From Actinomyces naeslundii (GTDB taxonomy: Bacteria > Actinomycetota > Actinomycetes > Actinomycetales > Actinomycetaceae): a stretch of 64,000 bases of DNA. The DNA is taken from assembly GCF_001956585.1 (NCBI RefSeq), contig NZ_MSRR01000002.1, positions 1-64,000 of the forward strand, read 5' to 3'. Numbering within the stretch: position 1 is the stretch's first letter; each line of letters begins with the position of its first letter. Below the pieces are notes generated by a model, which was given only the letters and a program-made list of their open reading frames with translations, searched no databases and was not told the DNA's origin. Shown here piece after piece: positions 44,966-60,725 of the stretch. The position numbers and the translations under genes are program-made.

Positions 44966-45346
44966 ATGGCACGTGTGAAGCGGGCTGTTAACGCCCAGAA
45001 GAAGCGTCGTTCCGTTCTCGAGAAGGCCTCGGGCTACCGCGGCCAGCGCTCGCGCCTCTACCGCAAGGCCAAGGAGCAGGTCACCCACTCCGGCGTCTAC
45101 GCGTTCCGCGACCGTCGCGCCCGCAAGGGCGACTTCCGTCGCCTGTGGATCCAGCGCATCAACGCTGCCGCCCGCGCCGAGGGCCTGACCTACAACCGCT
45201 TCATCCAGGGGCTCGGTCTGGCCGGCGTGGAGATCGACCGCCGCATGCTCGCCGAGCTGGCCGTCAACGAGCCCGAGGGCTTCAAGGCTCTTGTGGAGGT
45301 CGCCCGTAAGGCCCTCCCCGAGGACGTCAACGCCCCCAAGGCCTGA
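44966..45346 (+). CDS. rplT: 50S ribosomal protein L20
   Basis: 126-residue ribosomal assembly protein; in many bacteria it also represses its own operon by binding mRNA. Family features: [55 protein letters not shown] and [33 protein letters not shown] precedes the ATG. It is the last gene of the operon; a strong terminator follows, and then the AT-rich island begins. Confidence 0.97.
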
Positions 45347-45425: not shown

Positions 45426-45542
45426 CATCGTGTCTGCGTGGTAGTGTACGTAACAATACGGATCAATCGGACTGCAACTTGCGCCTTGGGCTTCAAGGAT
45501 GAACAGCCTCAGCGTGAGCGTCAACCACAAAGGGAGCTCCCA

Positions 45543-48365
45543 ATGAAGCGAGACTTTGTCGACAAACTGACGTCTATGGTGAAAGCTCAATGGATGCGAT
45601 GGAAGCATCGGCGAGTAGGCAACTTTGACGTGTTCATTTCCTACAGTCACGACCCATCTAGAACGCTCGCGTTTGCGTTGCACGACAGCTTAGAGAAGCT
45701 CAGTCGAAACTGGTACAGTTTCCGGGCGCTAAATGTCTTCTTAGATCGAAGTTCACTCGGACCGACGATGAGGCTGGAAAAAGAGCTTGAGAGTATTGTG
45801 AGTCGGTCTGAATGGCTTGTATGTATTTGTTCTGAGAACGCTGCCAAATCGGACCCAGTCACTAAAGAACTTAATTGGTACATTGAACGGAACGGTGTTG
45901 AGAAACTCATACTTATTGTGGATGATGGTGTAATCTGTTGGGATCGAGAAGCGAAGAGTTTTTCTCAAACAACAACAAACATACCGAACGAGGTGCTGAG
46001 CAAAATTAAAGATGAGCCTCTATGGATAGATCTGAGAGGGAGGAACGAGTCGCAGGATTCCTTAGAAAATTATCCAGAATTTCTCGACGCGGTCCTTAGT
46101 ATATCATCGCGAGTTCAGAACACGTCGAAAGAGACTCTTTTAGATCGCGAGAACAAGCGTCAGAATCGCCTTGTGAGATTTCGGTGGATGTCTTTCTCAG
46201 TACTTATCATCCTTCTCACAATCTCAGTGGCAATTTCTTGGTTTGCGGTATCTGCACGGAATGAAGCATTATCGAACTTAAATGTCGCGACTGCAAGAGC
46301 ATTCGCTTCTCGAGCTAATGAGTTGTCTGATAGCGATGTAGCTGATTCTCAATTATATGCCGCGCAAGCGTGGGATCTTCATCAAGATGAAGTCACTCGG
46401 GCGGCGCTATTCAAATCCGTTGTAGAATCTCGCAATCTGGTGGGGAATCGAATTACGTCAAGTAGCGTTACGTCGCTAGCCGCAAACTCTGATGCAACAC
46501 TGATATTCGTTGGACATGAAGATGGAACGATGGAACGTTGGGAAACCAAAACGAACGCGCTGACACAGGTCGGAAAACTACGTTTTGCAGTAAAAAAAAT
46601 TTCTGTGAATCGTTCCGGAGACGTTGTTGTGGCAACGGGATGGCGTGACGTTTACCCTGGATACTATGAAGCCGAAGTAAAACTGTGGAAGTCGGGACAG
46701 GAAAAATGCGTCAGCAAGTTAGATCGTTATGGCGGTGCCGCCGTGTCTCCATCCGGAAAAACAGTTGCGCTACCGCCACAGGGATCTGGAGTTATGAAAG
46801 TACTGCATAGCGAATCGCAAGATTGCGGATGGTTGGATGTTGACATGCATAGTCACTTCTCCACTAACGAGAACGATGCAATTGCGTTACCTGATGATAA
46901 TTCTGTGGTCATTCAAAGCTACACATCAATAAGCACATACTCGCTTTCCGACCAGCAGCTTGTGTACCGTACTTGTAATTATATTGAGGGTCCAGACGAT
47001 CAGTCTCCTGTTCTTTCGTCAAATGGTGGTCATAGCTTCGGGGAAAAGGGTGCTGTTTCATCGCATCAGAGTACTCCCGTGAATACTGACCCGGCTGTAT
47101 CTCATGCGGAACTTGATTGGGAGAAACGTTACTACATAAGATCGCCGTTGCCGGCACTCTCAGATGATGGATTGACGGCTGCGGTAATTAACGCAGAGGG
47201 ACTTACTGTATACGATGTCGAAGATGGTCGACCTAATCAATGGACCTTCACCTCTCTGCCTGTCGGTAATGAACTCTCCGCTTTGTCTGTGCCAACCAAG
47301 CATGTGATTATCACTGCAATCGGTTCAAACGTGTCATATTGGAGGATGGATATCCCGTCAAAAGTAATTCGGGAATATGAATCAACGGCAGGTCCCATGT
47401 GTGATGACTGCGCGGTTTCCCGAATTGCCCCATCTCAGTCAGGAAAGTATTTGGCTCAGTACTGGAACAGCTCTAAAGGTGGCCGCATTTTTGTCCTTAA
47501 TTTTGACGACGGTACGGAAAGTGTGGTTGAAGAAGGGGATTTTCTTGCGTGGCGAACCGATGAAGAATACTTTGCTATTCATGGTGGGAAGACTTGCCTT
47601 TATCGTGCGGTAGATGGCGCTTCTGAGCAATGCTGGAGCATACCTTCCTGGACCGATAATGACTCTACTTCTGGTCGTATTAAAGGAGTGTGGGATGGAA
47701 ACTCTCTAAAGTTCTCAAATGGTGCAAGTGTTTGGAGTTTTGACTACAAAACGCATCAGTTCGGTCAAACTACGCCCGAGGGGCGTGTAGTTGAAATGAC
47801 TGGCCATGGGATTGTGGTCTCTGAAGGTGGAGGCGATAGTTCTAGTCCTGGCATGTTCAAAGTAATTTATGACGATGGAGAAGTGGAGGCTTACGATCGT
47901 TATGTTTGGCTAGCTAATGATGGTTCTACTGTCAGTACGTCGGGGAGCGGAACTGTCGTTGCTAATACAAGATACGGAAAAATTGAGCAGCGTTCCTTTC
48001 TGGAAGGGCCTTCGGCTGTAAGTATTTCCAACAATGGTGAGTATCTTGCCTATGCTGATTCTCAGAATACTGTTTCGATATATTCTCTGGCTGCGGGCAT
48101 GACGGTTGGAACAATTACGTTAACGGGGCGGCCGTATTCTGCTGCTGCAGTTCAATTTAGCCCCTCAGGTTCGTCACTTTATGCGAACTACTTCGATTCT
48201 TCGAAAGGTGTAGAAGTAACAGTGAAAGTTAATCTTGATCCCAACGTTTGGTACAGCAATGACTGTGGGGTTGTGCGTAGATCGGTTTCATCGGCAGAGT
48301 GGCGTCGGGTTACCGAAATGGATGAACCAAAGTCAGGCTTTGCTTGCTCAAGTTACGTCAATTGA
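45543..48365 (+). CDS. TIR domain-transmembrane-WD40-like propeller protein
   Basis: A 940-residue protein with native-atypical AT-rich codons. Residues about 26-125 form a TIR domain (NFDVFISYSHDPSRTLAFAL, BB-loop LGPTMRLEKE, catalytic Glu expected at 109 in SDPVTKELNWY), quoted in parts. A TM helix follows (215-237, MSFSVLIILLTISVAISWF). Then comes the helical segment ATARAFASRANELSDSD that in many STAND/WD40 proteins precedes the propeller, and about 600 residues of WD40-like blades (for example SLAANSDATLIFVGHEDGTME and NNGEYLAYADSQNTVSIYSL). ATG 45543 follows GGGAG by 6 nt. Likely a membrane-bound sensor (propeller) with a TIR NADase effector; an immune role is inferred. Confidence 0.82.
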   Translation: MKRDFVDKLTSMVKAQWMRWKHRRVGNFDVFISYSHDPSRTLAFALHDSLEKLSRNWYSFRALNVFLDRSSLGPTMRLEKELESIVSRSEWLVCICSENAAKSDPVTKELNWYIERNGVEKLILIVDDGVICWDREAKSFSQTTTNIPNEVLSKIKDEPLWIDLRGRNESQDSLENYPEFLDAVLSISSRVQNTSKETLLDRENKRQNRLVRFRWMSFSVLIILLTISVAISWFAVSARNEALSNLNVATARAFASRANELSDSDVADSQLYAAQAWDLHQDEVTRAALFKSVVESRNLVGNRITSSSVTSLAANSDATLIFVGHEDGTMERWETKTNALTQVGKLRFAVKKISVNRSGDVVVATGWRDVYPGYYEAEVKLWKSGQEKCVSKLDRYGGAAVSPSGKTVALPPQGSGVMKVLHSESQDCGWLDVDMHSHFSTNENDAIALPDDNSVVIQSYTSISTYSLSDQQLVYRTCNYIEGPDDQSPVLSSNGGHSFGEKGAVSSHQSTPVNTDPAVSHAELDWEKRYYIRSPLPALSDDGLTAAVINAEGLTVYDVEDGRPNQWTFTSLPVGNELSALSVPTKHVIITAIGSNVSYWRMDIPSKVIREYESTAGPMCDDCAVSRIAPSQSGKYLAQYWNSSKGGRIFVLNFDDGTESVVEEGDFLAWRTDEEYFAIHGGKTCLYRAVDGASEQCWSIPSWTDNDSTSGRIKGVWDGNSLKFSNGASVWSFDYKTHQFGQTTPEGRVVEMTGHGIVVSEGGGDSSSPGMFKVIYDDGEVEAYDRYVWLANDGSTVSTSGSGTVVANTRYGKIEQRSFLEGPSAVSISNNGEYLAYADSQNTVSIYSLAAGMTVGTITLTGRPYSAAAVQFSPSGSSLYANYFDSSKGVEVTVKVNLDPNVWYSNDCGVVRRSVSSAEWRRVTEMDEPKSGFACSSYVN

Positions 48366-48775
48366 GTCCTTCCTGCCTAGGTCTTTGCGAATGATGTTCG
48401 AGAATGGTGTCGAGATAGTTCTGTTCTGGAGGTGAGGGGTAGGGCTGATGTGTCCCACTGGCGAGGTGACGACCGTTTTCACGAGGACGGCACGGTGCTG
48501 CGGCACCTGGACATCAGCTTATCGGCCCGCACAACATGATCCACGACGGAGACTTCTACAACCCACGATCGGCAGCACAGTCATCCATTGCTGCTTGACA
48601 TACCAATTAGGAGCACCCCAGGTGAGAAAACCAGCTCTCTTTGTAGTGGTGGGTATGTTTCGGAACTGAGTTGCACAGTTCGGGCTGGTATGTGCTTCTG
48701 GATGGGATTTTTCGTTGGAATGGTAACGGTGGGGTGGTCGTTGTAGGTCACTAAGCTGACGGTAGGATCTGGGGG
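48366..48775. other. Non-coding debris at the start of the insertion-sequence block
   Basis: No intact gene in about 410 bases. GC content rises from about 48,430. A short stretch at about 48,440-48,570 reads like a broken coding fragment in shifting frames (RFHEDGTVLRHLDI, then IGPHNMIHDGDFYNP), which I cannot name. The last 100 bases precede the IS1634-like start and may include its left end. Confidence 0.35.
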
Positions 48776-48902
48776 TGAGCCCGTACCTGCGCAAGGTCAA
48801 GACCATCTCGGGGGCCACGGCCGCGTAGGTCTTGGTCAAGGAGAACGGTGTGCGCCGGATTGTGGAGCACCTGGGATCGGCTCATGACGAGGCAGGGCTG
48901 GA

Positions 48903-50284
48903 TGTCAAGCCCCGGGTTTTGTGGAGGCTGGTTTATCTGGTGCCGGTGGTTGCCGGTTGTGATTGTTCCTGGCGGTGGCAGTCGGGTGCCCAGGCGGCTT
49001 CGTGCTCGGCGGGGGTTCGCATCCCGATGGCGGAGTGTGGCCGGGTGGTGGTGAACCAGTGCACCCACTCAGCGGTGGCGACCACGGGCGGCGTCGATGT
49101 CCTGCCAGGGTCCTTGGTTGCGGATGAGCTCGGCCTTGTACAGCGAGTTGAGCGCCTCGGCCAGAGCAAAGCCAAAAGGAGTCGCCCTTCGACCCCACCG
49201 AGGCGACCGCCTCGCAGTCGGCCAGAGCCTGACCGTAGCGAATAGACCTGTACTGCACCCCACGGTCGCAAGTGATGCACCAGGCCCGTCAGGTCGGCCC
49301 CCTGACGTTTCCGTTGCCAGACGGCCATCTGAAGGGCGTCCAGGGCCAGGTCGGTGCACAGGCTCGTGGAGGTCTGCCAGCCGATGAGCCTCCGCGAGTA
49401 CACGTCGGTCACGAAAGCCACATAGACCCACCCGGAGAAGGCGCGTACATAGGAGGGGGCATTTCCCGCTTGCGGGGGAATGTCGGCGACCCACAGCTCA
49501 TCGGGAGCAAACGCCTCGAAGTGGCGCTTGACCAGGTCGGCCGGATACTGCTCTCGCGGCGCGCTGCGCGTGGTGCGCGGGGACCTGGCACGGCGGACGC
49601 CGCGCAGGCCCAGGTCGCCCATGAGGCGTTCGACGGTGCACCGGGCCACGTAACCGGCACCGTGACGCTCGGCGCTCTCAGGTCGGCCCCGCATCACGTG
49701 CATCTTGCGGGTCCCCAGCACCGAGTAGCTGGTTCTCATGGACTCGTCTGATCTCGGCCTTGAGGATCTCATCGCGCACGCTCCTGGCGCTAGGAGACCG
49801 GCTACGGCGGGCGTGAGTCACGTGCTCGGGGCGATCTTGACTCCGGCGCCAGTGAGCACCTTGCAGATCGGCCAGGCCCCGAACTCCTCCTTCTTGATCG
49901 CAATGTACTGGCAGATCAACGAGATGGGCGCTCACACTCCGCCGCGATAGACAAGCCGACGCTCTCTTCAGCATCGCGTTGGCTCTTCGCAGCTCTCGGA
50001 CCTCTTTCTCAAGCTCCTTGATCCGCTGCGCCTCGTCAGTGGTGGTTCCCGGCCTCAGACCACCATCGACCTGGGCCTTCTTGACCCAGGTGCGCAGAGC
50101 CTCAAGGTGGACACCCAGCTCCTCGCCGATCCTGCGGATCGCGCCCTTGGCCCGCGCCGGGTCAGCCAACGCGTCCAACGCCATCCTCGTGGCCCGCTCG
50201 CGCAGCTCATCGGGATACTTCTTCTGTCCCATGACAGTGATCCTTCCGTGTCATCACTGCCTCCATCAAACCCGGGACGATTCA
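48903..50284 (-). mobile_element. IS3-family element inserted in the IS1634-like gene
   Basis: Imperfect inverted repeats bound it: left TGTCAAGCCCCGGGTTTTG and, reading inward on the other strand, TGAATCGTCCCGGGTTTGA, sharing CCCGGGTTT and TGGAGGC. A 3-bp direct repeat GGA flanks it (48900-48902 and 50285-50287). Removing the element and one GGA restores the reading frame EAGLEVLLEAGRQ of the host gene. The length of about 1.38 kb fits IS3 family. Confidence 0.75.
48933..50232 (-). pseudogene. IS3-family transposase OrfA/OrfB, frameshifted
   Basis: OrfA starts at 50232 (MGQKKYPDELRERATRMAL, HTH, then the Leu-zipper-like EAQRIKELEKEVRELRRANA). OrfB fragments follow in changing frames: ARSVRDEILKAEIRRVHE, then YVARCTVERLMGDLGLRG, DELWVADI, FSGWVYVAFVTDVYSRRLIG, then a frame change to the middle and an end WVHWFTTTRPHSAIGMRTPAE. 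The DDE domain is split by several frameshifts, so the element cannot transpose on its own. Confidence 0.75.
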
Positions 50285-50828
50285 GGAGGTCTTGCTGGAG
50301 GCTGGGCGGCAGAAGATCGCCGGCAGGCAGGGTCAGGGGCTGCTGGACCTGGAGTCCCTGGAACCAAAACCTGGATGTACTGGCCTGGTCGGCACCACGG
50401 TGGAGACCAAGCGCTCGGTCCTGCTGTGGGAGGTCCTGCACCCACCTGGGGCTGGGCGAAGCGGCCGGGGGTGATTGGGCTTTTGAGCAGATGGTTCTGA
50501 CGCGCTTGATCGAGCCGACCGCCTGCAAGGCCCAGGTTCCCCGTGTGCTGGGTGACCTGGGCCTGGATGCGGTCAGCGTACGGACCTTGTTCCGGTCTCT
50601 TGGGCATTGTGCCGAGCGGGGTTACCGGGAGGCGATTTCTCAGGTCCTGTTCGATCACGTCACCGTCACCAGGGAACTGGCGCTGTGCCTGTACGACGTG
50701 ACCACCCTGTACTTCGAGGCTGAGCGTGAGGAAGACCTGAGGCGGGTGGGTTCCTGGTAAGGAGAGGAGGTCGATCCCCGGATCTTCGTGGGGGGGGTGA
50801 GGCCTGTCCGGTTTGCTGTGTAAGCGTT

Positions 50829-51072
50829 TTACAGGTAGGGGGTTGATTTGGTCGGGGTATGCGGTGTGGTGGGACTGGGCCGGGGTCTTGTATCTGGTCG
50901 GTGGTGCTCTGTCCTTCGACGAGCTTTCCCTTGGCCTTGCGCTTGACTGGGGCGGTCCTTTGTCTTTGTCGCGTTCTCGGGCTCGTTTGTCCACAGGTGT
51001 CGCAGATCGCCAGCTTTCAGCAGCTTGATTACCGCATCGTCAGGGGGGGAGTGTCCGCGGTTCATCGGTGAT
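50829..51072 (-). pseudogene. C-terminal remnant of a transposase (IS256-like)
   Basis: On the minus strand MNRGHSPPDDAVIKLL is followed, in another frame, by DKRARERDKDKG and then AYPDQINP. This resembles the C-terminal end of IS256-type transposases as I remember them. It is short, frameshifted and has no recognisable ends. Confidence 0.4.
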
Positions 51073-51143
51073 CCTTGCGTAGCTGGTTGGAGTGCGTTGT
51101 GTTTCTCGGACAGGGGGAGTTTTTCTTCCTGTGAGTCGATAGG

Positions 51144-51437
51144 ATGGAGACCATGCCAGCAGCGAAATACTCGGAGGAGTTCAAGGCCCAGGTCGTGCGT
51201 GAGGTCATTGAGAAGGACCGCACGATCGCCTCGGTGGCGGCCTCGTATGATCTTGTGGCCCAGACGGTGGGTAACTGGGTAGCAAAGTACAGAAAAGATC
51301 ATGCCACCGATCAGGACCGCCAGAAGGCCTCCGAGTCAGCGGAGATCGCAAAGCTGAAGGCGGAGGTTCGTGAGCTGCGTCAGGAGAACGAGTTCTTGAA
51401 AAAAGCTGCCGCCTTCTTCGCAAAGGAACGACCGTGA
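51144..51437 (+). CDS. IS3-family transposase OrfA
   Basis: 97-residue DNA-binding component: MPAAKYSEEFKAQVVREVIE with an HTH (TIASVAASYDLVAQTVGNWV) and a C-terminal Leu-zipper-like coiled coil (EIAKLKAEVRELRQENEFL). An inner ATG at 51153 is an alternative start. It overlaps OrfB by 4 nt; in this family a -1 frameshift can fuse the two. Confidence 0.85.
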   Translation: METMPAAKYSEEFKAQVVREVIEKDRTIASVAASYDLVAQTVGNWVAKYRKDHATDQDRQKASESAEIAKLKAEVRELRQENEFLKKAAAFFAKERP

Positions 51438-52319
51438 CCGAGCGTTACGAGCTCATCAATCGCGAAGAAGGCCATTACCCTACCTCCTCGATGTGCCGGT
51501 GGGCCGGTGTCTCACGGTCCGGCTACTACTCCTGGCGCGACCGACCTGAGTCCATCACCAAAACGAAAAGAAAAGAGCTCAGTATCATCATCAAGGATGC
51601 CTTTGCCGACTCCGACGGCACTTACGGGTACCGAAGGATCCAGGCCTGCCTGGAGAGGCGTGGCGTGAGAGTAGATGGCGCCACGATCCGCTCCATCATG
51701 CACGAGCTGGGCCTTGAGGCCGCGCAGCCACGGGCGAAGGTCCGTACTACCGGGCCGGCCGCGGACCTCGATGAGCGCCCCGACCTGGTGGGGCGGGGCT
51801 TCACCGCCGACAAGCCTGGGCGTAGGTGGTGCGGGGACATCACTTATATCAGTACGTGGGCCGGGTTCGTCTATCTTGCTACGGTTCTGGACTGCTGCAC
51901 CAAGAAGGTCGTGGGGTACGCGATGGCCGATCATATGCGCACCTCGCTGGTGTGTGAGGCCATCGACATGGCAGCCAGGCGCTGTCCGGCCCGGGAAGGG
52001 TGTGACGGTCTTTCACTCCGACCGGGGCAGTCAGTGCACGTCGCAGAAGTTTCTGGACCACCTGAAGTCCTATGGTATCCGTCCGTCCGTGGGGCGTACG
52101 GGGGTGTGCTGGGACAATGCGTGGGCGGAATCATTTAACGCCACGCTCAAGAACGAGAGAGTGCATAGAATGGTGTACCCCACGAGACAGAAAACGGTTA
52201 ACGATATTGACTCGTGGATCGAGCTGAGATACAATCATGTTCGCCTTCACTCAGCCCTGGGATACCGCACACCTAATGAGGTTGAGCAAGAACTCCTGGG
52301 CCTAACCAAGGCAGCCTGA
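51434..52319 (+). pseudogene. IS3-family transposase OrfB with a single-base frameshift
   Basis: The DDE integrase reads well from 51434 (INREEGHYPTSSMCRWAGVS, GTYGYRRIQACLERRGV, RRWCGDITYISTWAGFVYLA with the first Asp) up to CPAREG at about 52000, then stops making sense. The remainder (VTVFHSDRGSQCTSQKFL with the second Asp, DNAWAESFNATLKNERV with the Glu, LHSALGYRTPNEVE) continues in another frame to 52319. One extra G in the GGG at 51998-52000 explains it. All catalytic residues are otherwise intact, so this is a recent break or a sequencing error. Confidence 0.85.
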
Positions 52320-52413
52320 AACACCAAACAAGCAGTGTCCGAAAAACACCCAGCAGTCCAGGTAGTTCGCAGTTGACCTGTTTCAGTGTTGTTGTCGGCT
52401 TTGGGTGGTTGGA

Positions 52414-53850
52414 TCAGGCATCATTGTGGTCTTCTGGGTTGGTTTGATTGTGTTGTTGTCTTTCTGTTGTGGGCAGGTCGTTGTCGGGCGGCTTGTTCCA
52501 GCTCGTCCTGGCGGGCTTTGCGGATGGCGGGTCCGCGTCCTTCGTGCTCATCGAGAGGGGCGGATGTAGCCGATGTCCGGGGTGCAGGGGCTGGCTGTTG
52601 TACTCGAGGCGGACCGAGTCGGGCTCGGCGGTGAGTACGGCGGGGTCGGTGATGGCCAGCAGGTGGGGCCGCTCAGCCTTGATCGTTCCGCCCCGTGACT
52701 CGATCCAGGTCTGGTCGGTGGCAGTCGCCGGGCGCCCGAAGTGCTGAGCGATGGCGACCATGGCCATGAACCGGCGGGTGCTGGCGGCGATCATCTGAGT
52801 CCCGTTGTCCGAGACGGCCAGCAGCAGCGCAGTCAGATCATCATCGCCGTCCAGGACCAGCTGACGCTTAAGGGCGTCAGCGCGTTCCAAGGCGGAGGTG
52901 AGCAGGTCCTCGGCCTCCAGGGCCTGCCAGGTGGCGAGGCGGACCTGGATGTGGGTCTCCTCCGCGGAGACGGGCGTGGGTGATCCGCTTGCGCCAGACA
53001 GGTCCTCGATGATCAGCACCGTCATCGCGCAGGTGGCGAAGTGGGTGGAGTCGTGGATCTATATCGAGCTGGGCTGGTACGTTGCCCGGTCAGGGAAGGG
53101 ACGACGCTTGGAGCCCGACGGCCGGGGCGGGTGCCCGGTAGCGCAGGTCATGGTCGTTCAGCACTCGGCGGATCGTGGAGGCCCAGGCCCACAAGCAGCC
53201 CGCCCGTAGGAGCCGTGGTGAGCCAGGCGCCGGTGGGAGAAGTCCTTGGCGGCGAAGGTCTCGAAGGCCTCCACGATCGCCTCGGCCTCGCTCGGCACCA
53301 GCGCGCCCGGCGAGGCTCCGGGCCGACCATCATCCAGCTTCTTCCCACTGTCCTGGTGGCGTCTGAAGCGCCGGTGGCGTCTGTCGGACAGCCCTAGGAC
53401 CTCACAGGTTGGAGACGGGCCAGCCCCAGCCTGCGGCGTAGTCGACCAGGTCGAGTAGCCCCTGCTTGGTGGCTGTGTCCACACCGGCGGGAACCGGTTC
53501 GGTGGGCATCAGGCCAAGCCACCCTTTTTCCTCCAGCACCACCAGCCCGGCCGCCTGCTCGGTCACCGCGTGCGTGAGTCGGTCAATCTCGGCCCGGGCC
53601 TGGTCAAGCACGACGTTACGGGCAGGCTTACCCGAGACTCCTGGCCGTGAGGCGGCCAGCGCCTCCACAGCGCCCTGCCTGGCGACCTGCCGCAACCGCA
53701 TGATCGTGGAACGGTCCACCCCGGCCTGCGCGGCAGCCGCTCCGACCATGGTCTGGCCACGCATCAGCTGCACGTAGATGTCGTACTTCTTTGAGGGAGA
53801 CAAGAACACCTTGGCCCGGCGCCCAGCGCTTTCGTCGTGTCAGCATCACT
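52414..53850 (-). pseudogene. Decayed IS3-superfamily integrase-type transposase
   Basis: Minus-strand fragments in different frames line up as one protein: SPSKKYDIYVQLMRGQ and VDRSTIMRLRQVARQG (helix-turn-helix, about 53800-53690), ARAEIDRLTHAVTEQA, LGLSDRRHRR, EAIVEAFETFAAKDFSHRRLAHHGSY, then TVLIIEDLSGAS, RQLVLDGDDDLTALLLAVSDNGTQM, AIAQHFGRPATATDQTWIES and ALEAEDLLTSALERA from the integrase core. At least three frameshifts separate the pieces; the C-terminus trails into low-complexity sequence. No ends could be identified. Confidence 0.65.
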
Positions 53851-54244: not shown

Positions 54245-54754
54245 TCAATATTCTCTATAGTGCGCCCTAACTTTTCCAGCCCAGTTCTGGATCACCGTCT
54301 TAAGTAGTTGATCCTGGTAACCTGTAGGTAGATTTCTAGGAAGATTCTGGATGAATACTTCGCTCACGCCGGGATCGAAGACACCTCCACCTATACCGTC
54401 TTCGCAAAACACGACGAGCGGAAGGCGCAACGCAAAAAGAAGACCCGCTTCTAGATTGTTCCAGGGAGTCGGAAAAGACACGTCCTTGACCATCTTTTGC
54501 TGAGATGTTCCAGGCTTTATCGTTACCGCCTCAGCAAACATCTGTTCGAATCCAAGTATAACACCGCCTGAGCAGTGCCTTGCGATTGAATACACCTCTT
54601 TGAGTGGAAACTCAATACCAAAGTCAGAACCGCCTAAAGTCCTCGGTTCAAGTCCTTCGCTCGTGAGTAGATCCGTCATGTAATCCCGAACAGCACTTTG
54701 CTCGATCGACATTTTAGTGGGGCATGAAACAAACACAGGAATACGTGCCGGCAT
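54245..54754 (-). CDS. Small TIR-like / deoxyribosyltransferase-like protein
   Basis: A soluble 169-residue Rossmannoid protein. The first strand is RIPVFVSCPTKMSIEQSAV, then helix and strand GLEPRTLGGSDFGIEFPL, GGVILGFEQMF, and PWNNLEAGLLFALRLPLVVF, where Glu102 in NNLEAG is placed like the catalytic Glu of TIR and nucleoside deoxyribosyltransferase folds. GIGGGVFDPGV follows. ATG 54754 is preferred because GGAG lies 9 nt upstream; ATG 54769 is an alternative. It is third in a minus-strand cassette, 276 nt after the second TIR/SLOG gene. I infer a nucleotide-related immune role from fold and context; no exact family is claimed. Confidence 0.72.
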   Translation of the reverse strand: MPARIPVFVSCPTKMSIEQSAVRDYMTDLLTSEGLEPRTLGGSDFGIEFPLKEVYSIARHCSGGVILGFEQMFAEAVTIKPGTSQQKMVKDVSFPTPWNNLEAGLLFALRLPLVVFCEDGIGGGVFDPGVSEVFIQNLPRNLPTGYQDQLLKTVIQNWAGKVRAHYREY

Positions 54755-55030
54755 AATTGTATACTCCATCTGTGTGTGAGACTACGATAGTAAAAAGTGA
54801 ATATCTTGCTCACGTGCGAGGAACGCACCTGAAGTTAGCATTACCATAGTCAGCCATCCCCTCTTGCTCTCAAAGGTACAACTATAATTTTACTATGGTG
54901 TAAAGATAACGAAAACGGCAGAATCTACCGTTAAGAAACATAACCTAGTACCTGCATAAGAAGATGATCATGATGATGCCGTACATGTTTGGTGTAACGG
55001 CAGAAAACATCAAATAACGCAAAGTGTGTT
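54755..55030. other. AT-rich gap inside the cassette
   Basis: 276 bases, very AT-rich, between the second TIR/SLOG gene and the small TIR-like gene. It could hold a separate promoter for the small gene, but no element is convincing. No ORF of note. Confidence 0.35.
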
Positions 55031-57268
55031 CTAAGAATGTTGTTCATTAGTTAGTCCTTTCACCAAAAGCGTCGCTAACTCCGTTGGTCGATACGATGAT
55101 GTGAATGTTCTAAGTTCCTCAGAACTCAAATGATTATTCTCAGCACGATACAGCGTACGGATTTCTTGCAACGCATCTACGCACAACGGATTCCGAAGCA
55201 ACGTCGACAAAGCATCTTTCCCGCACTCAGCGCCAGGAATGTCTAGATATGAGGCGATGGCAGAAGCTGCCCCACCGTATCCAGCTGAAATATAGACATG
55301 TTTGTGAGCACGTAGCGATAGTAGCGTTTCTTCGACAACGCCAGGAATATCGCCACTATAACCTTCGTTAGGTTCTCTAGACTCACTCTGAGGAATTATT
55401 TTGCCCCCCAACGCCAAACGCACTGTAGATTTGGCGACTAGCGTCTCTCTGAACTTAGTAAACAACGCACTAGAACTCGAACTTACGTCATGCCCGTCTA
55501 ACGGCAAAGGCACATTATCTGGAGTATAGTAGTCACTATTCCATCCGACGACGCGAATCTGACCAATGTCCCCGTAAGCCGTTCGATAACGTCTCAGTTC
55601 TGAAATAATCTCATCACGTTCTTTCCAATTCTCGCGTATCTTATGCAACGGTACCCACAGATAAAAGTATCGTCGAGAGAAAGAAACTGCATTGCTTTCC
55701 TCGTAGCAAGGGGAGCTACGAGCGTAACTGAAGACAGATTCCATCATTGCTTTCGAAAGATCTGGTGAATGCGTCCCCACCATTCCGCCGTAAAGCAATG
55801 CTCCACCACAGGCCGAAACAAGTCGAGAAATTTCGGCCACTACTCGTGCGAGATGAGAACCATGAAGCCCCAAACTAGCAAGATTATTACTTCTAGCCAT
55901 AGAAAAGCCGACAATTGTACTAGGCGAAAGCAAATGAATTTGATCAACACTTGAAATGTCGGAAGAATTACTGGAGGCACTTTCTCCACGGACGATCACT
56001 GATCTGGGGGTTCGAATATGTAAGGAATCTCTGTTAATTCCTGCGATGGCGCAAGCCCGAATAATTTCCTCGTGTTCGGGCTCTTGAATCGTTGGGTCTG
56101 GATGAAGTATCCAGAACGAATTACGGTTCAACATTTCGTTCTTAGTTAGATTAATAATATGTGAATTTAGTGTCAACAACTCTGGCGATGTCGCCGGGTA
56201 CCAATCGAATGTCCGCACAGATAATCTTTCCTTAGATTCGTGCCAAAGAACAAATCTAAGCGTCTCATCGATGAGACGATTGATCGCTCGAACTATCGAT
56301 ACTTTAGCCCGACCGGGTTGAAATCGTACTGTAGGTACTTGATCAAGTAGGAATGAACCTCTTGATTCCCCTTCGGTGAGCGCTGAAATCGCGACAATCG
56401 GTACTTCGTTATGCTTCGCCAATGTTACCTCACGTTGAGTATTCGGACTAACTGCATAGTTGTCCGTCCGTATAACCAAAAGTGCACTAATGTAACGATC
56501 GGAAGACGAAAGTGCGTCATCTATAGAGGACTTCCAATTGTCTAGAGGTACTAAGTGTAATTTGTCAACGAAGTTATCAATACCGAGATCCTTGAATGAA
56601 CTGATGGCCTCCTGCAACACTGTTTTGTTCTGAGAATCGACTTGATCGACGTTATCCTTATTTGCGTAACTAACGAATATACGCAAAGATGGTGAGCTGG
56701 AACCTGCCGCTGATGCTTTCTCAATTATAACCCTGTTGAGATCGCGTTCTAATCGCCCGAGTTCTTGCGCATTTGCGTCGTCTATTTCAATGTCGGCAAC
56801 AGAAAAAATGTCTTCGGGATACGGCGCCAAATATTGAAACTCTTTAAGATATTTGAGATCATTCGAATCAAAGAATGACAGATCAACGCCAACTAATGGG
56901 AGAGGAATGACAGCGTACGTAAGATCATTGGTCCCACCGTTAAGAGTCGCTGATAAATATTTTCTCCATTTTTCGTTGTCGATATAAGCGTCACGCAATT
57001 CCTCTCCGACAATCGGAATCACCACTGTAAACTTCGACGCACGCGCATCGATTTTCAACGGCGGGGTATCGAAATTTCCATCAGGTGACGCGGAACGCGA
57101 AAAAACCTCCACGACTCCGCTCGCCAATCCTGACAGTGCATCGGAGCGGTAATGCTTCAGTAATCGCTCGTATATTAATTTTCCAACCTCATCGCCGGGG
57201 TGCCACAATACGAATATTTCAAGAATAGACGGGGATGGAGAAATCATAGTTGTGTTGAATTGATTCAT
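55031..57268 (-). CDS. TIR-like/TIR/SLOG protein, second paralogue
   Basis: A 745-residue soluble protein in three parts. Residues about 15-165: a TIR-like Rossmannoid domain (LEIFVLWHPGDEVGK, VVEVFSRS, FTVVIPIVGEEL). About 195-316: a canonical TIR domain (RIFVSYANKDN, NFVDKLHLVPLDNWKSSID, candidate catalytic Glu280 in NTQREVTLAK, SALTEGESRGSFLLDQVPT). About 385-680: a SLOG (LOG-like) domain with LLYGGMVGTHSPDL, RLALGGKIIP, GDIPGVVEETLLSL and AGYGGAASAIA. ATG 57268 is chosen over a TTG at 57334 because it aligns with the paralogue start; no Shine-Dalgarno is obvious. 92 nt after the first paralogue, same direction. SLOG is known to bind NAD- or nucleotide-derived ligands; defence is inferred. 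Confidence 0.83.
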   Translation of the reverse strand: MNQFNTTMISPSPSILEIFVLWHPGDEVGKLIYERLLKHYRSDALSGLASGVVEVFSRSASPDGNFDTPPLKIDARASKFTVVIPIVGEELRDAYIDNEKWRKYLSATLNGGTNDLTYAVIPLPLVGVDLSFFDSNDLKYLKEFQYLAPYPEDIFSVADIEIDDANAQELGRLERDLNRVIIEKASAAGSSSPSLRIFVSYANKDNVDQVDSQNKTVLQEAISSFKDLGIDNFVDKLHLVPLDNWKSSIDDALSSSDRYISALLVIRTDNYAVSPNTQREVTLAKHNEVPIVAISALTEGESRGSFLLDQVPTVRFQPGRAKVSIVRAINRLIDETLRFVLWHESKERLSVRTFDWYPATSPELLTLNSHIINLTKNEMLNRNSFWILHPDPTIQEPEHEEIIRACAIAGINRDSLHIRTPRSVIVRGESASSNSSDISSVDQIHLLSPSTIVGFSMARSNNLASLGLHGSHLARVVAEISRLVSACGGALLYGGMVGTHSPDLSKAMMESVFSYARSSPCYEESNAVSFSRRYFYLWVPLHKIRENWKERDEIISELRRYRTAYGDIGQIRVVGWNSDYYTPDNVPLPLDGHDVSSSSSALFTKFRETLVAKSTVRLALGGKIIPQSESREPNEGYSGDIPGVVEETLLSLRAHKHVYISAGYGGAASAIASYLDIPGAECGKDALSTLLRNPLCVDALQEIRTLYRAENNHLSSEELRTFTSSYRPTELATLLVKGLTNEQHS

Positions 57269-57360
57269 ATTACAATGCCTGGGGTGTAGACGCAAGAAGT
57301 GATTTTGAACTATTTTGCAGAAAGCGCAGATCAAGACGACGTTACATGAACTTCATAATG

Positions 57361-59700
57361 TTAGTCGGAAGGATTCGTACACGTTCGTTTGTGTCCAACT
57401 AAACCTTTGACGACAAGACCGCCAACTTCTGAAGGGCGTTGGGTTGTAGCAAGTTTCTTGACATCTTCCTCTTCAAGACAAAGAACGTCCCTCCTATAAC
57501 TCTCCCTGATTTCATCGATCGCATCTCGGCACATGTCGTTATGCAATACTGCGTCCAAGGTCTGTTTCGGTACTGGAATCTTGTCCGCCAGTCCAATTGA
57601 GCGGGCTAGAACTGCTGCGGCACCACCGAAGCCACCCGCGATATAGACAGGCTGGCGATTTCTAAGGGCCTCCAGAGTTTCTTCGATGATTCCTGGAATG
57701 CTCCCTATGTATCCATCGGAATAGTCGCTGGATTTGGGTATAGTCTTTCCTCCAATAACCAGGCGAGCTTGAGCAAACTTATACAAGGACTTTCGAATAC
57801 TAGATAGTGCCTCAGCTGTGCGATCTGTTGATGTAGCTTCCCAAATGTGCGTGTTTTCAAGAGCCACCTCCTCTCCTCGATCGTTGATAACACAAATTTT
57901 TCCTGTGGATGCAAATTGTGTCTTGGAAGACAAGAGTTTTTGGAGTACTTCTTCCGATGTGATGCTTGTGCATGGGACTGTGAGATTGAACATGTGTCCA
58001 GCATGTATCGGTGTTAGTCCATAGAATGCCTGACTACATTGTCTATGCTGCCTGAGCTGAGCTTCCTCAATGTACTTTTTGATGACCTGAAGAACAGATT
58101 CTGTGAGGTCTGGTGAGTGTGTTCCTATGGCTCCTGCGTACGAAATTTTGCCGCCTGAGATTAACGCCAGTTGAGCCGTTTCGGCGACAACCGATTCTAA
58201 ATGACTGGTGGTGAGCCCTAATCTATGGAGGTCCTCACTGGCTGACGCAGAGATGGACAGAGTAAAGTTGGATAGCGGTCGCTCTATCGATAGATTCGGC
58301 GTTTTAACTTCAGGCTCGCCGTGGCCGAAGGTTCCTCCTGCTGCAAAGAACAAACGAGGAGTTAAAAGATGAATATTATTTTTACTATAGTTGGCAAGTA
58401 TGCATAGCTCTACCATCGTTTCATGTTCTGGTGGGAGAAGTGGCGGATCTGGATGTAGTATCCACAAATGGTTGTCGTTAGGGTACCTTTTGCGATGTTC
58501 GGATAGAAAACTGGTCAACATCAGAGGTTCTGGAAGACGAGGAGGCATAGCGTCGAATCCGCGATTGTTGTTATCGGTGTGGCCGGTATTTTTTGCGTGT
58601 CGCTCGAACTCCAGATACACTTCCTGGTTTTGCCATAGTGCATGTTTTAAGGTTTCGTCAATTAGGCGATTTAGCGCTTTTATGATTGAGAATGCTTCCG
58701 ACGTTTCTGAATGGTTCTGATATGCCACCGTAGGTACGTGGTCTAGAAGAAATGATCCTCTTGATTCCCCTGTTTCTAATGCACTTAAGCAGACGATCGG
58801 CATCCCTGCTTTCTTCGCTTCCAAAACTTCCCACTGTGTCCACTCGCGAATGCTGTAGTGGTCAGTTCTAACCATCAGAAGCGCGCTCGTTTTTGCCTGT
58901 TGTCGTATGGTCTCGTTCCATTCTTGTCCAGGTTGAAGATCGTGGATATCAACAAAACTGCAGAGTTGTGTTTTTTTGACCCAACTGGCGATCTTGGAAA
59001 CAACACCGTTTGTGTGAATTGTGTGCTGGTCGGATTCGGGTATATCTCGGCGAGCGTGGCTTACGAATATCTTTAGTCTGTTGCTCAGGGGAGCCTTGTG
59101 AAGTAGGTTTTGAACAACGGCTTTGCCGACATCTCTGGATAGTCGACCGTAGTCGGCTGGTGAATTATATGACTCGACTTGCGATATCGATTTAATGTTC
59201 CCTTGCGAGACTCCCTGGATGCTTGCTAACTCGTTAATAAGTGGAGCGTTTGAATAGTCGACTGTTTGCTCGGGAAGTATTGGGATGATGAGTGTTCTGT
59301 TGTCGCTGGCGTTTCGGTGATCAATTATTTGTCGAAGATACTTTGCCCAAGGGGAGTGAGTGTTAGTAGAAGTTCTGACTAGATTTTCTTCGATGTAGAT
59401 TAAGATTACGGTGAATCGTGCTGGATTCCCTGTGAACGAATCGTTGGCTCCGATCATTCCTGTGGGGGTTGGTATGGGTAAAGGTGTCTCGTTCGTCGGA
59501 GATATGGATGTTGAACGTGAGTACACTTCGATAGAGCCTCCAGCCAGACCGGAGAATGCGTCGGAGTGATAATGTTCGAACAGTGAATTGCAAATTTGGG
59601 TTCCATTTTGGTCGTTTGGGTGCCAGACCACGAACATGTCTAACGTTGTCGGAGATGGAGCCGTTTTTGTTGCTTGTTTCATAGGTGTGCGGTTGTTCAT
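57361..59700 (-). CDS. TIR-like/TIR/SLOG protein, first paralogue
   Basis: A 779-residue soluble protein with the same layout as its downstream neighbour: TIR-like domain about 20-150 (LDMFVVWHPNDQNGTQ, SIEVYSRS, FTVILIYIEENL), TIR about 208-325 (KIFVSHARRDIPE, SFVDIHDLQPGQEW, Ser/Trp and Glu291 in SIREWTQWEVLEAK), then SLOG about 475-705 (HRLGLTTSHLESVVAE, SYAGAIGTHSPDLTESV, RLVIGGKTIP, GSIPGIIEETLEAL, IAGGFGGAAAVLA). ATG 59700 follows TACCAT by 7 nt, a leaderless start; the frame is open to 59751. The pair looks like an ancient tandem duplication: conserved motifs but different connecting segments. AT-rich codons mark it as foreign. Confidence 0.85.
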   Translation of the reverse strand: MNNRTPMKQATKTAPSPTTLDMFVVWHPNDQNGTQICNSLFEHYHSDAFSGLAGGSIEVYSRSTSISPTNETPLPIPTPTGMIGANDSFTGNPARFTVILIYIEENLVRTSTNTHSPWAKYLRQIIDHRNASDNRTLIIPILPEQTVDYSNAPLINELASIQGVSQGNIKSISQVESYNSPADYGRLSRDVGKAVVQNLLHKAPLSNRLKIFVSHARRDIPESDQHTIHTNGVVSKIASWVKKTQLCSFVDIHDLQPGQEWNETIRQQAKTSALLMVRTDHYSIREWTQWEVLEAKKAGMPIVCLSALETGESRGSFLLDHVPTVAYQNHSETSEAFSIIKALNRLIDETLKHALWQNQEVYLEFERHAKNTGHTDNNNRGFDAMPPRLPEPLMLTSFLSEHRKRYPNDNHLWILHPDPPLLPPEHETMVELCILANYSKNNIHLLTPRLFFAAGGTFGHGEPEVKTPNLSIERPLSNFTLSISASASEDLHRLGLTTSHLESVVAETAQLALISGGKISYAGAIGTHSPDLTESVLQVIKKYIEEAQLRQHRQCSQAFYGLTPIHAGHMFNLTVPCTSITSEEVLQKLLSSKTQFASTGKICVINDRGEEVALENTHIWEATSTDRTAEALSSIRKSLYKFAQARLVIGGKTIPKSSDYSDGYIGSIPGIIEETLEALRNRQPVYIAGGFGGAAAVLARSIGLADKIPVPKQTLDAVLHNDMCRDAIDEIRESYRRDVLCLEEEDVKKLATTQRPSEVGGLVVKGLVGHKRTCTNPSD

Positions 59701-59713: not shown

Positions 59714-59798
59714 TACCGTGATTTGTGACGTGTCAGTTGTTGATCTGACAACCTGCTGCTCGTTATGTCGTAGTTGGGATATCGGAGTCGAAATCCCG

Positions 59799-59804
59799 TA
59801 TTCT
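59799..59804 (+). promoter_or_regulatory. -10 element TATTCT, leaderless start of the rRNA methyltransferase gene
   Basis: TATTCT is followed by 6 nt (GTTGGC) and ATG 59811. TTGGGA at 59774-59779 is a possible -35 at 19 nt. Confidence 0.55.
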
Positions 59805-59810
59805 GTTGGC

Positions 59811-60725
59811 ATGACTCGTGTTTCGACTGTCCACCCTGACGAACTTCTAGATGACACTGCCGAGAGGCCTGCTGCCTGCGGGCCGCGGCGGCGCACCGTC
59901 AGCGAGGGGCCGGCCACCGGCCACGAGGTGCTGAACAACCCGGCCTCGGCCCGTATCTCCCGTGTGGCGGGCCTGTCCCGCCGAAACGTGCGGACCAAGC
60001 ACCGTCGCTTCCTCGTCGAAGGCCCCCAGGGCGTGCGTGAGGTCATCCGTCATGCTTCTGAGCGCGTGCTCGACGTCTACCTCACCGAGGCCGCCGTCGA
60101 GCGTTACAGCGAGATCTGGGATGAGGCGGTGGCGGCCGAGCTCTACGTGCACGTCACCAGTGAGCAGGTCATGGACGCCATGAGCACCGATGCCCAGGGC
60201 GTCCTCGCCGTCGTCGCCATTGAGGAGGCCTCCGGCTCCGAGGCGCTGGTCACCGCCCTGGACGGGGCTAGGCTCGTTGCCGTCCTCACCCAGGCCCAGG
60301 ACCCCGGAAACGCCGGCGCCATCATCCGAGCCGCCGATGCCGCCGGAGCCGACGCCGTCGTCCTTGTGCGGGGCAGCGTGGATCCCACCGCGCCGAAGGT
60401 CGTGCGCTCCACCGCCGGAAGCCTCTTCCACCTGCCTGTCGTCACCGGTGTGGCCCTGGACGACGCCGTGGCCGCCCTTCACGAGGCTGGACTCACCGTC
60501 CTGGCGGCCGACGGACGCGGGGACTTCGACCTATTCGAGGCCGAGTCTCTCCTGGAGGCACCCAGCGCCTGGCTGCTTGGCAACGAGGCCCGCGGGCTGC
60601 CCGCAGAGGCACTGAGTCGGGCCGACGCCGTCGTCTCCATTCCCATCTACGGCAAGGCGGAGTCGCTCAACGTCGCGGCCGCCGCAGCCGTCTGCCTCTA
60701 CGCCAGTGCCCGGGCACAGGCGTAG
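59811..60725 (+). CDS. TrmH/SpoU-family RNA 2'-O-ribose methyltransferase
   Basis: SAM-dependent RNA methyltransferase of 304 residues, likely acting on 23S rRNA. An N-terminal L30e-like substrate domain (about 40-140: SRRNVRTKHRRFLVEGPQGV) precedes the SPOUT knot: motif 1 LTQAQDPGNAGAIIRAADAA, motif 2 LLGNEARGLP, motif 3 VSIPIYGKAESLNVAAAAAV. ATG 59811 is chosen over the open frame from 59685 because of the leaderless -10; the upstream codons overlap the foreign cassette. In actinobacteria this gene normally follows rplT directly, here 14 kb away. GC-rich native codons resume here. Confidence 0.92.
   Translation: MTRVSTVHPDELLDDTAERPAACGPRRRTVSEGPATGHEVLNNPASARISRVAGLSRRNVRTKHRRFLVEGPQGVREVIRHASERVLDVYLTEAAVERYSEIWDEAVAAELYVHVTSEQVMDAMSTDAQGVLAVVAIEEASGSEALVTALDGARLVAVLTQAQDPGNAGAIIRAADAAGADAVVLVRGSVDPTAPKVVRSTAGSLFHLPVVTGVALDDAVAALHEAGLTVLAADGRGDFDLFEAESLLEAPSAWLLGNEARGLPAEALSRADAVVSIPIYGKAESLNVAAAAAVCLYASARAQA

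Follow-up and report, generated by a model that had tools for sequence, protein, structure and literature searches.

Tandem TIR-SLOG genes in Actinomyces naeslundii, candidate effectors of a Thoeris-like system lacking the usual adjacent TIR gene

We analyzed bases 1-64000 of contig 2 of Actinomyces naeslundii (NZ_MSRR01000002.1; genome size 3.12 Mb), a stretch of 64,000 nucleotides that we call the window. It carries two adjacent genes, B and A, whose products join a TIR domain to a SLOG domain, followed by a small gene, S. An earlier inspection of the letters (the original prediction) had taken the three genes for a candidate new immune system. All three open reading frames (ORFs) were confirmed on the minus strand. 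They are transcribed in the order B, A, S, with intergenic gaps of 92 nt (B-A) and 276 nt (A-S).

57361..59700, minus strand: gene B, 779 aa; start as suggested by database copy P0121
55031..57268, minus strand: gene A, 745 aa; start as suggested by database copy P0241
54245..54754, minus strand: gene S, 169 aa; start as suggested by database copy P0001

In a large protein database, S had 854 homologues and B at least 187. About 8000 candidates were scored in each of the searches with A and B, so the homologue numbers are lower bounds. Because homologues exist, chance ORFs are ruled out. Promoter-like sites were fewer than the shuffle mean (4 vs 7.9) and terminator-like sites slightly more frequent (8 vs 5.1, standard deviation 2.3); no operon claim is built on these counts.

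B consists of an N-terminal alpha/beta region (residues ~1-203), a TIR domain (~208-347), a linker region and a SLOG cluster 2 domain (~471-779). A has the same layout. In Pfam, TIR_2 and LD_cluster2 (SLOG cluster 2) scored above cut-off in both proteins, LD_cluster2 reaching 90 bits in A and 113.3 bits in B against a cut-off of 25.3. SIR2 from Pfam matched neither. The guanine-plus-cytosine content is 45-49% at 54-60 kb and 47% at 46-48 kb, compared with 60-72% in the other 2-kb steps. The predicted pair of adjacent AT-rich TIR and SLOG genes is therefore confirmed.

The AlphaFold2 (AF2) model of B, which uses a 771-aa numbering (8 less than the 779-aa numbering), had a predicted local distance difference test score (pLDDT) of 81.4 and a predicted template modelling score of 0.85. 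In this model B has SLOG and TIR folds. Compared with VIA-align as a whole fold, not residue by residue, the modelled SLOG of B was closest to the SLOG of ThsA that binds 3' cyclic ADP-ribose (3'cADPR). No sequence link from A, B or S to solved structures was found at E values up to 0.1 and 1. The N-terminal region of B, modelled with an alpha/beta order of strands and helices, was barely covered by the structure comparison. A second TIR in this place was not supported: when the region was compared with profiles of the family TIR, SLOG, ThsB, small TIR and S, no probability exceeded 6%, with one of the eight small-TIR rows (L004) cut out of frame. The TIR-like N-terminus of the original prediction is thus not established.

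WxxxE is a mark of TIR NADases. The TIR of B keeps WTQWE (Trp287-Thr-Gln-Trp-Glu291 in the 779-aa numbering), so the catalytic Glu and WxxxE are both present. In A, Glu280 is kept, SPNTQ[RH]E stands in place of xxWTQxE, the Trp of WxxxE is replaced by Asn and five residues are inserted. Glu280 of A, Glu291 of B and Glu102 of S all lie where they had been predicted in the 745-, 779- and 169-aa numbering. In the alignment WHPxD is present in both proteins, and the SLOG motifs are GGK, PGxxEE and GGxGGAA in B and GGK, PGVVEE and AGYGGAA in A. Hence, of the motifs said to be shared, GGxGGAA is found in B only. Both proteins have the Lys of GGK and the Glu of PGxxEE, placed by alignment and not by superposition on the ligand contacts of ThsA. 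In passages of PMC10022894, R371, K388 and E403 of ThsA contact 3'cADPR.

In a tree of the family, A and the proteins P0242 and P0243 (63% identical) formed a deep, separate clade with support of 100/100. The clade was placed beside the other fused members from Actinomycetaceae except that of G008. Support was 98/99 for the joint group of 24 rows and 96/94 for the other 21 rows, and the stem of the A clade measured 2.29 changes per site. The tree has a midpoint root and a long-branch warning, so the exact place of the A clade is less sure than the support suggests; A was also flagged for unusual residue composition. A is not a recent copy. All three A-clade rows have Asn at the Trp of WxxxE, where 33 of the 35 other rows have Trp. 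The 5-residue TIR insert, the Glu and the SLOG motifs are likewise found in 3/3. In the motif alignment the L045 row was misframed in its SLOG part only, and its corrected frame was used for the tree.

We then compared the window with related loci. A scan of genome contigs gave 19 family loci, all from Actinomycetota, and the nearest named relatives were from Actinomyces, Schaalia and Peptidiphaga. In five loci, from these three genera, TIR and SLOG form one gene in single copy (frameshifted in L007), directly followed by a TIR gene of 206-276 aa. In the other 14 the TIR part (~405 aa) and the SLOG part (~280 aa) are in separate frames, and a ThsB-like gene adjoins them. Six of these split pairs are clearly overlapping genes (L008, L011, L012, L013, L015, L017), and two look broken (L020, L021). 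Further family loci came from four Actinomycetaceae genomes (L032, L034, L036, L044) and seven plasmids from five phyla. No relatives of A or B were found in viral contigs.

As judged by profile hidden Markov models (HMMs) and Pfam, 29 of 30 relatives, from five phyla, have a separate TIR gene no more than 1.5 kb away, usually adjacent. The 30 loci are L003-L021, L032, L034, L036 and L044-L051, with the window kept separate. Not counted were L037 (G021, a shortened gene), plasmid hit H10 and repeat loci from a genome already represented. Several of the 30 are closely related, so they are not 30 independent events. The partner HMMs were seeded with seven Pfam-checked neighbors, the locus of each seed being tested by the other seeds. 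They matched within 1.5 kb in 28 of the 30 loci, with no further match of these two narrow kinds in the flanks. At L046, one of the two misses, a Pfam TIR_2 gene lies 1.1 kb away; at L051, the other, an IS3 transposase interrupts a TIR-TIR gene. The HMMs are narrow and also miss TIR genes at L045:16857-18017 and L032:11091-11585 and the TIR-WD40 gene of the window.

The window is an exception. The family is present in 11 of 213 Actinomycetaceae genomes and in 7 of 49 genomes of the genus. Two copies side by side were seen in the window genome only, among the 213 genomes and the 19 further loci. The other ten carriers have one copy each, in two overlapping frames in G028 and G150 and truncated in G021. 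Leaving out G021, the family gene is whole, or whole but frameshifted, and a small TIR gene lies directly behind it in 9/9 carriers. At the G021 site (L037) the family gene is cut after ~168 residues and followed by other ORFs and a TIR-WD40 gene. Near A and B the partner HMMs found no TIR gene, a result that is weak alone because the HMMs are narrow. A whole-genome search with TIR_2 matched in three places only, the TIR-WD40 gene, A and B, and the reading that A and B have no TIR partner nearby leans on this search. ThsB_TIR had no match in this genome, in a search whose control matched in 1 of 14 genomes.

Compared with type I Thoeris (ThsA, SIR2-SLOG, plus ThsB, TIR), the family has an NADase-type domain fused to, or encoded with, a SLOG whose modelled fold is nearest that of ThsA, and its split and distant members carry an adjacent ThsB_TIR gene. 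In contrast to ThsA, the effector domain of A and B is TIR and not SIR2, their SLOG is LD_cluster2 and not STALD, and they have an extra N-terminal region. The ThsB gene that most relatives have was found neither beside A and B nor elsewhere in the genome. A SLOG sensor with an NADase-type domain, together with a ThsB-like TIR, is the Thoeris pattern with TIR in the place of SIR2. The likeliest role of the family is that of effector in a two-part system of the Thoeris kind. B keeps every tested feature of such an effector.

A Thoeris type weakly like these proteins is already named, type III (ThcA plus ThcB4, SLOG plus TIR), which we know from NCBIfam model names alone. The TIR of B, its relatives and the partners match ThcB4 at 25-57 bits against a cut-off of 220. 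The SLOG of distant relatives matches ThcA at 16-23 bits against a cut-off of 110, which suggests that ThcA is likely a SLOG protein. However, ThcA is modelled at 184 aa, whereas A and B are fusions of 745-779 aa.

TIR and SLOG domains were reportedly predicted by Burroughs et al. (2015) to be linked in nucleotide-centered conflict systems. 'TIR-SLOG-based antiviral systems' are mentioned in a passage of PMC9503650. The family itself is not described in the passages available from PMC9503650 and PMC12847820, and no paper on type III Thoeris was found in the literature searched, where subscription papers are mostly not covered. The literature passages gave no report of a ligand for SLOG cluster 2.

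S gave an AF2 model with a pLDDT of 85.3. In fold searches N-glycosidase folds came first and TIR folds close behind, most rows lying within 1 Z. By its model S would have an N-glycosidase or nucleoside deoxyribosyltransferase (NDT)-like fold, with TIR folds scoring nearly equal. The original prediction had proposed a small TIR/deoxyribosyltransferase-like fold for S. Glu102 was invariant in 16 aligned relatives, and the first strand has Phe, not Tyr. No match to S was found in Pfam, PADLOC or NCBIfam (E 1) or in PHROGs (0.01).

Passages of PMC11204291 describe ThsB proteins with a Tyr in the active site, a feature shared with NDT and DNPH1; at this position the usual residue of TIR NADases is Phe or Ala. 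Should Phe13 of S, placed by motif and not by superposition, correspond to that position, S would tolerate a substrate with a 2'-hydroxyl, such as NAD+ or a ribonucleotide. S resembles the ThsB subfamily of the EcThsB2 class described there in its related fold (as modelled), conserved Glu and relatives beside TIR genes. That subfamily, in contrast, has the Tyr and pairs with a TM-macro ThsA; the strand-1 residue of S is Phe, and no ThsB model in Pfam, PADLOC or NCBIfam matches S. No macro-domain protein was noticed in the island, no separate scan for macro domains having been made.

Among 49 genus, 394 class and 396 order genomes sampled, S was found in its own genome only. Its relatives include one in viral contigs and two in plasmid records; phage records held none. 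TIR genes are close by at 3/3 of these outside loci, which are few, and islands gather defense genes. In the viral contig (L043:6915-8501) the order is ThsB_TIR, an 8xMP membrane protein and S. On a Halorubrum plasmid (L052:5757-8480) a ThsB_TIR gene lies 150 nt upstream of the S relative, with another ThsB_TIR and an 8xMP gene nearby. The S relative, ThsB_TIR and 8xMP could possibly be a separate TIR-membrane-protein system. On pRHL1 of R. jostii a 101-aa TIR_2 ORF lies 1.2 kb from the S relative, separated from it by a pterin-dehydratase-like ORF; a family locus accompanied by its ThsB is ~11 kb away.

The AT-rich island that holds the three genes is bordered by an rplT-like gene and a SpoU-type methyltransferase gene. 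Its other features are:

44966-45346: rplT-like gene after an infC-like gene, labelled from translations; island border opposite the SpoU-type gene
45438..48365, plus strand: TIR-WD40 gene (Pfam), convergent with B-A-S
48519..53809: transposase-like ORFs (insertion sequences) between the TIR-WD40 gene and S, labelled from translations
59766..60725, plus strand: SpoU/TrmH-type RNA methyltransferase gene (Pfam); island border

From their translations, we take the first of these to be rplT, the gene before it infC, and the ORFs in the middle transposases. The SpoU gene was near the family gene in 6/6 relatives of the genus (L032-L037, tblastn), directly beside it or its partner in L033, L035, L036 and L037 and 2-7 kb off in L032 and L034. 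TIR-WD40 is the only TIR_2 gene found in the genome besides A and B. It occurs in 2 of 49 genus genomes, this one and G021 (L037:11078-13966, ~70% identical), and faces the family gene at the SpoU site in both. The chance of this co-occurrence (2/2 carriers, family in 7/49) is ~0.018, calculated by hand and resting on two genomes. TIR-WD40 is possibly an upstream sensor.

Other genes stand out around the relatives. On an Aureispira plasmid (L047:6939-11444) the family gene, of the fused kind, has three TIR partners, a ThsB-like gene and two further TIR genes. Together with an NDT-like gene they lie in a 5-kb stretch next to type III-B CRISPR genes. In G024 (L032:7977-15004) a fused TIR-SLOG gene, a small TIR gene, a second TIR gene (165 aa) and a gene for a 1140-aa TIR-NACHT-WD40 protein, whose TIR match in Pfam is just below cut-off, lie on one strand with overlaps. 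Split-form relatives lie among genes of DNA base modification. Among the 14 split loci, a gene like 5-hydroxymethyldeoxyuridine DNA kinase is found in 10 (L008-L015, L019, L021), Nmad2 in 7, a thymidylate-synthase-like gene in 6 and a MazG-like gene in 3, counted as protein clusters with one representative of each scanned for domains. The split form may be an immune system that watches or guards hypermodified DNA. An AAA ATPase gene lies upstream of the ThsB and TIR-TIR genes in L016, L018 and L020, with an additional 173-aa gene in L016 and L020. This recalls the HORMA/TRIP13 control of cyclic oligonucleotide-based antiphage signaling systems (CBASS). Pfam finds nothing in the 173-aa gene, and we rejected it as HORMA.

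From the family context an immune role for A and B is likely, as originally proposed. In the mechanism we favor, a phage cue would lead a TIR protein of the ThsB kind to convert NAD+ to an ADP-ribose-type signal. The SLOG of the TIR-SLOG protein would bind this signal, and its TIR would then assemble, destroy NAD+ and stop the infected cell. That such binding releases the NADase is drawn by analogy from ThsA (passages of PMC10022894 and PMC11204291). The usual stand-alone partner TIR would be gone here and its place taken by A, with a retuned TIR and intact SLOG motifs, by TIR-WD40, or by both. S would play an accessory part, producing, altering or clearing a nucleotide signal. The signal of this strain may come from A, TIR-WD40 or S. 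We give this reading as a whole, with A and B as Thoeris-like effectors, the lost partner replaced by TIR proteins of the island and S as an accessory, a probability of about 0.55.

Several points weigh against it. A lacks the Trp of WxxxE, the N-terminal region had no reliable fold match in the comparison with the B model, and STALD, the Pfam SLOG family named for its SIR2/TIR association, matched neither A nor B. A search of the whole genome for a STALD-type SLOG also gave no match, but its control gave none either, so this result carries no weight. ThcB4 scored 25.1 bits in B against its cut-off of 220 and did not match A; ThcA matched neither protein and reached 23.2 bits against 110 in the relative L050. 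In the fold searches with S, TIR folds score nearly as well as N-glycosidases. The six other genus genomes that carry the family all lack S, and, with 276 nt between A and S, S and TIR-WD40 may be chance neighbors in the island. At the G021 site no partner TIR was seen with the truncated gene, so partner loss may mean decay, and the present locus may be a decaying orphan as well. Phage defense is a prediction for every gene here, made from sequence and models.

A and S were not found with B in any other genome searched, and the gene set, said to be undescribed, was indeed not seen elsewhere. The original prediction had named a lack of co-occurrence outside this strain as a result that would count against it. 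This is what the survey gave in the genomes examined (S in the genus, class and order samples; the double copy in the 213 family genomes and 19 loci). Metagenome proteins nevertheless include a close orthologue of each of the three. Their identities are 63% for A, 73-74% for B and 72-78% for S, with sister copies at 83-98%. Such parallel divergence is suggestive of genes that move as a set and are retained; no contig links the orthologues, which again weighs against our reading.

The first alternative is a self-contained pair: A would supply the signal that B detects, or the two would assemble into a mixed oligomer, no further protein being required, and A would be a neofunctionalized substitute for ThsB. 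A lies directly downstream of B, where the small TIR gene lies in the nine other Actinomycetaceae loci. Its clade is coherent, all three members sharing the altered TIR site, and the genome searches turned up neither a ThsB gene nor a TIR gene standing alone. However, A keeps SLOG ligand motifs that a pure synthase does not need, and its Trp loss may mean loss of activity. We regard this alternative as tentative and somewhat unlikely.

A decaying or stacked island, with B an orphan effector whose partner is lost, A and S separate arrivals and no joint function, is unlikely. The center of the island consists of transposase-like ORFs, G021 has a broken family gene and a TIR-WD40 gene at the same site, and S is absent from all other genus genomes. 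But A, B and S are all open and conserved in their motifs, and the parallel divergence of their orthologues does not fit such an island. The original prediction of a single polypeptide that both produces and reads the signal, which would act as a feed-forward amplifier, has TIR and SLOG in one chain in its favor but is very unlikely. A TIR partner gene is retained in 29 of 30 relatives and the two domains are in separate frames in 14 loci, which points to the partner as the usual signal source.

We also consider, as speculative and quite unlikely, that the A clade descends from a TIR-SLOG effector and now serves as the source of the signal. A closed A-B loop would then have replaced the ThsB-type synthase, with A gated by its own SLOG and S, a ribonucleotide-preferring N-glycosidase, editing or ending the signal. 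If A is the source, this would be a Thoeris-like system whose messenger maker and reader come from the same protein family. For the family at large, our favored reading points to a widespread Thoeris-like layout in which TIR, not SIR2, is the NAD+-destroying part read out by SLOG. One enzyme fold would be used twice, for messenger synthesis and for killing. With the split forms, the fused forms and this partnerless member at hand, one could tell by experiment which TIR sends the signal and which carries out the killing.

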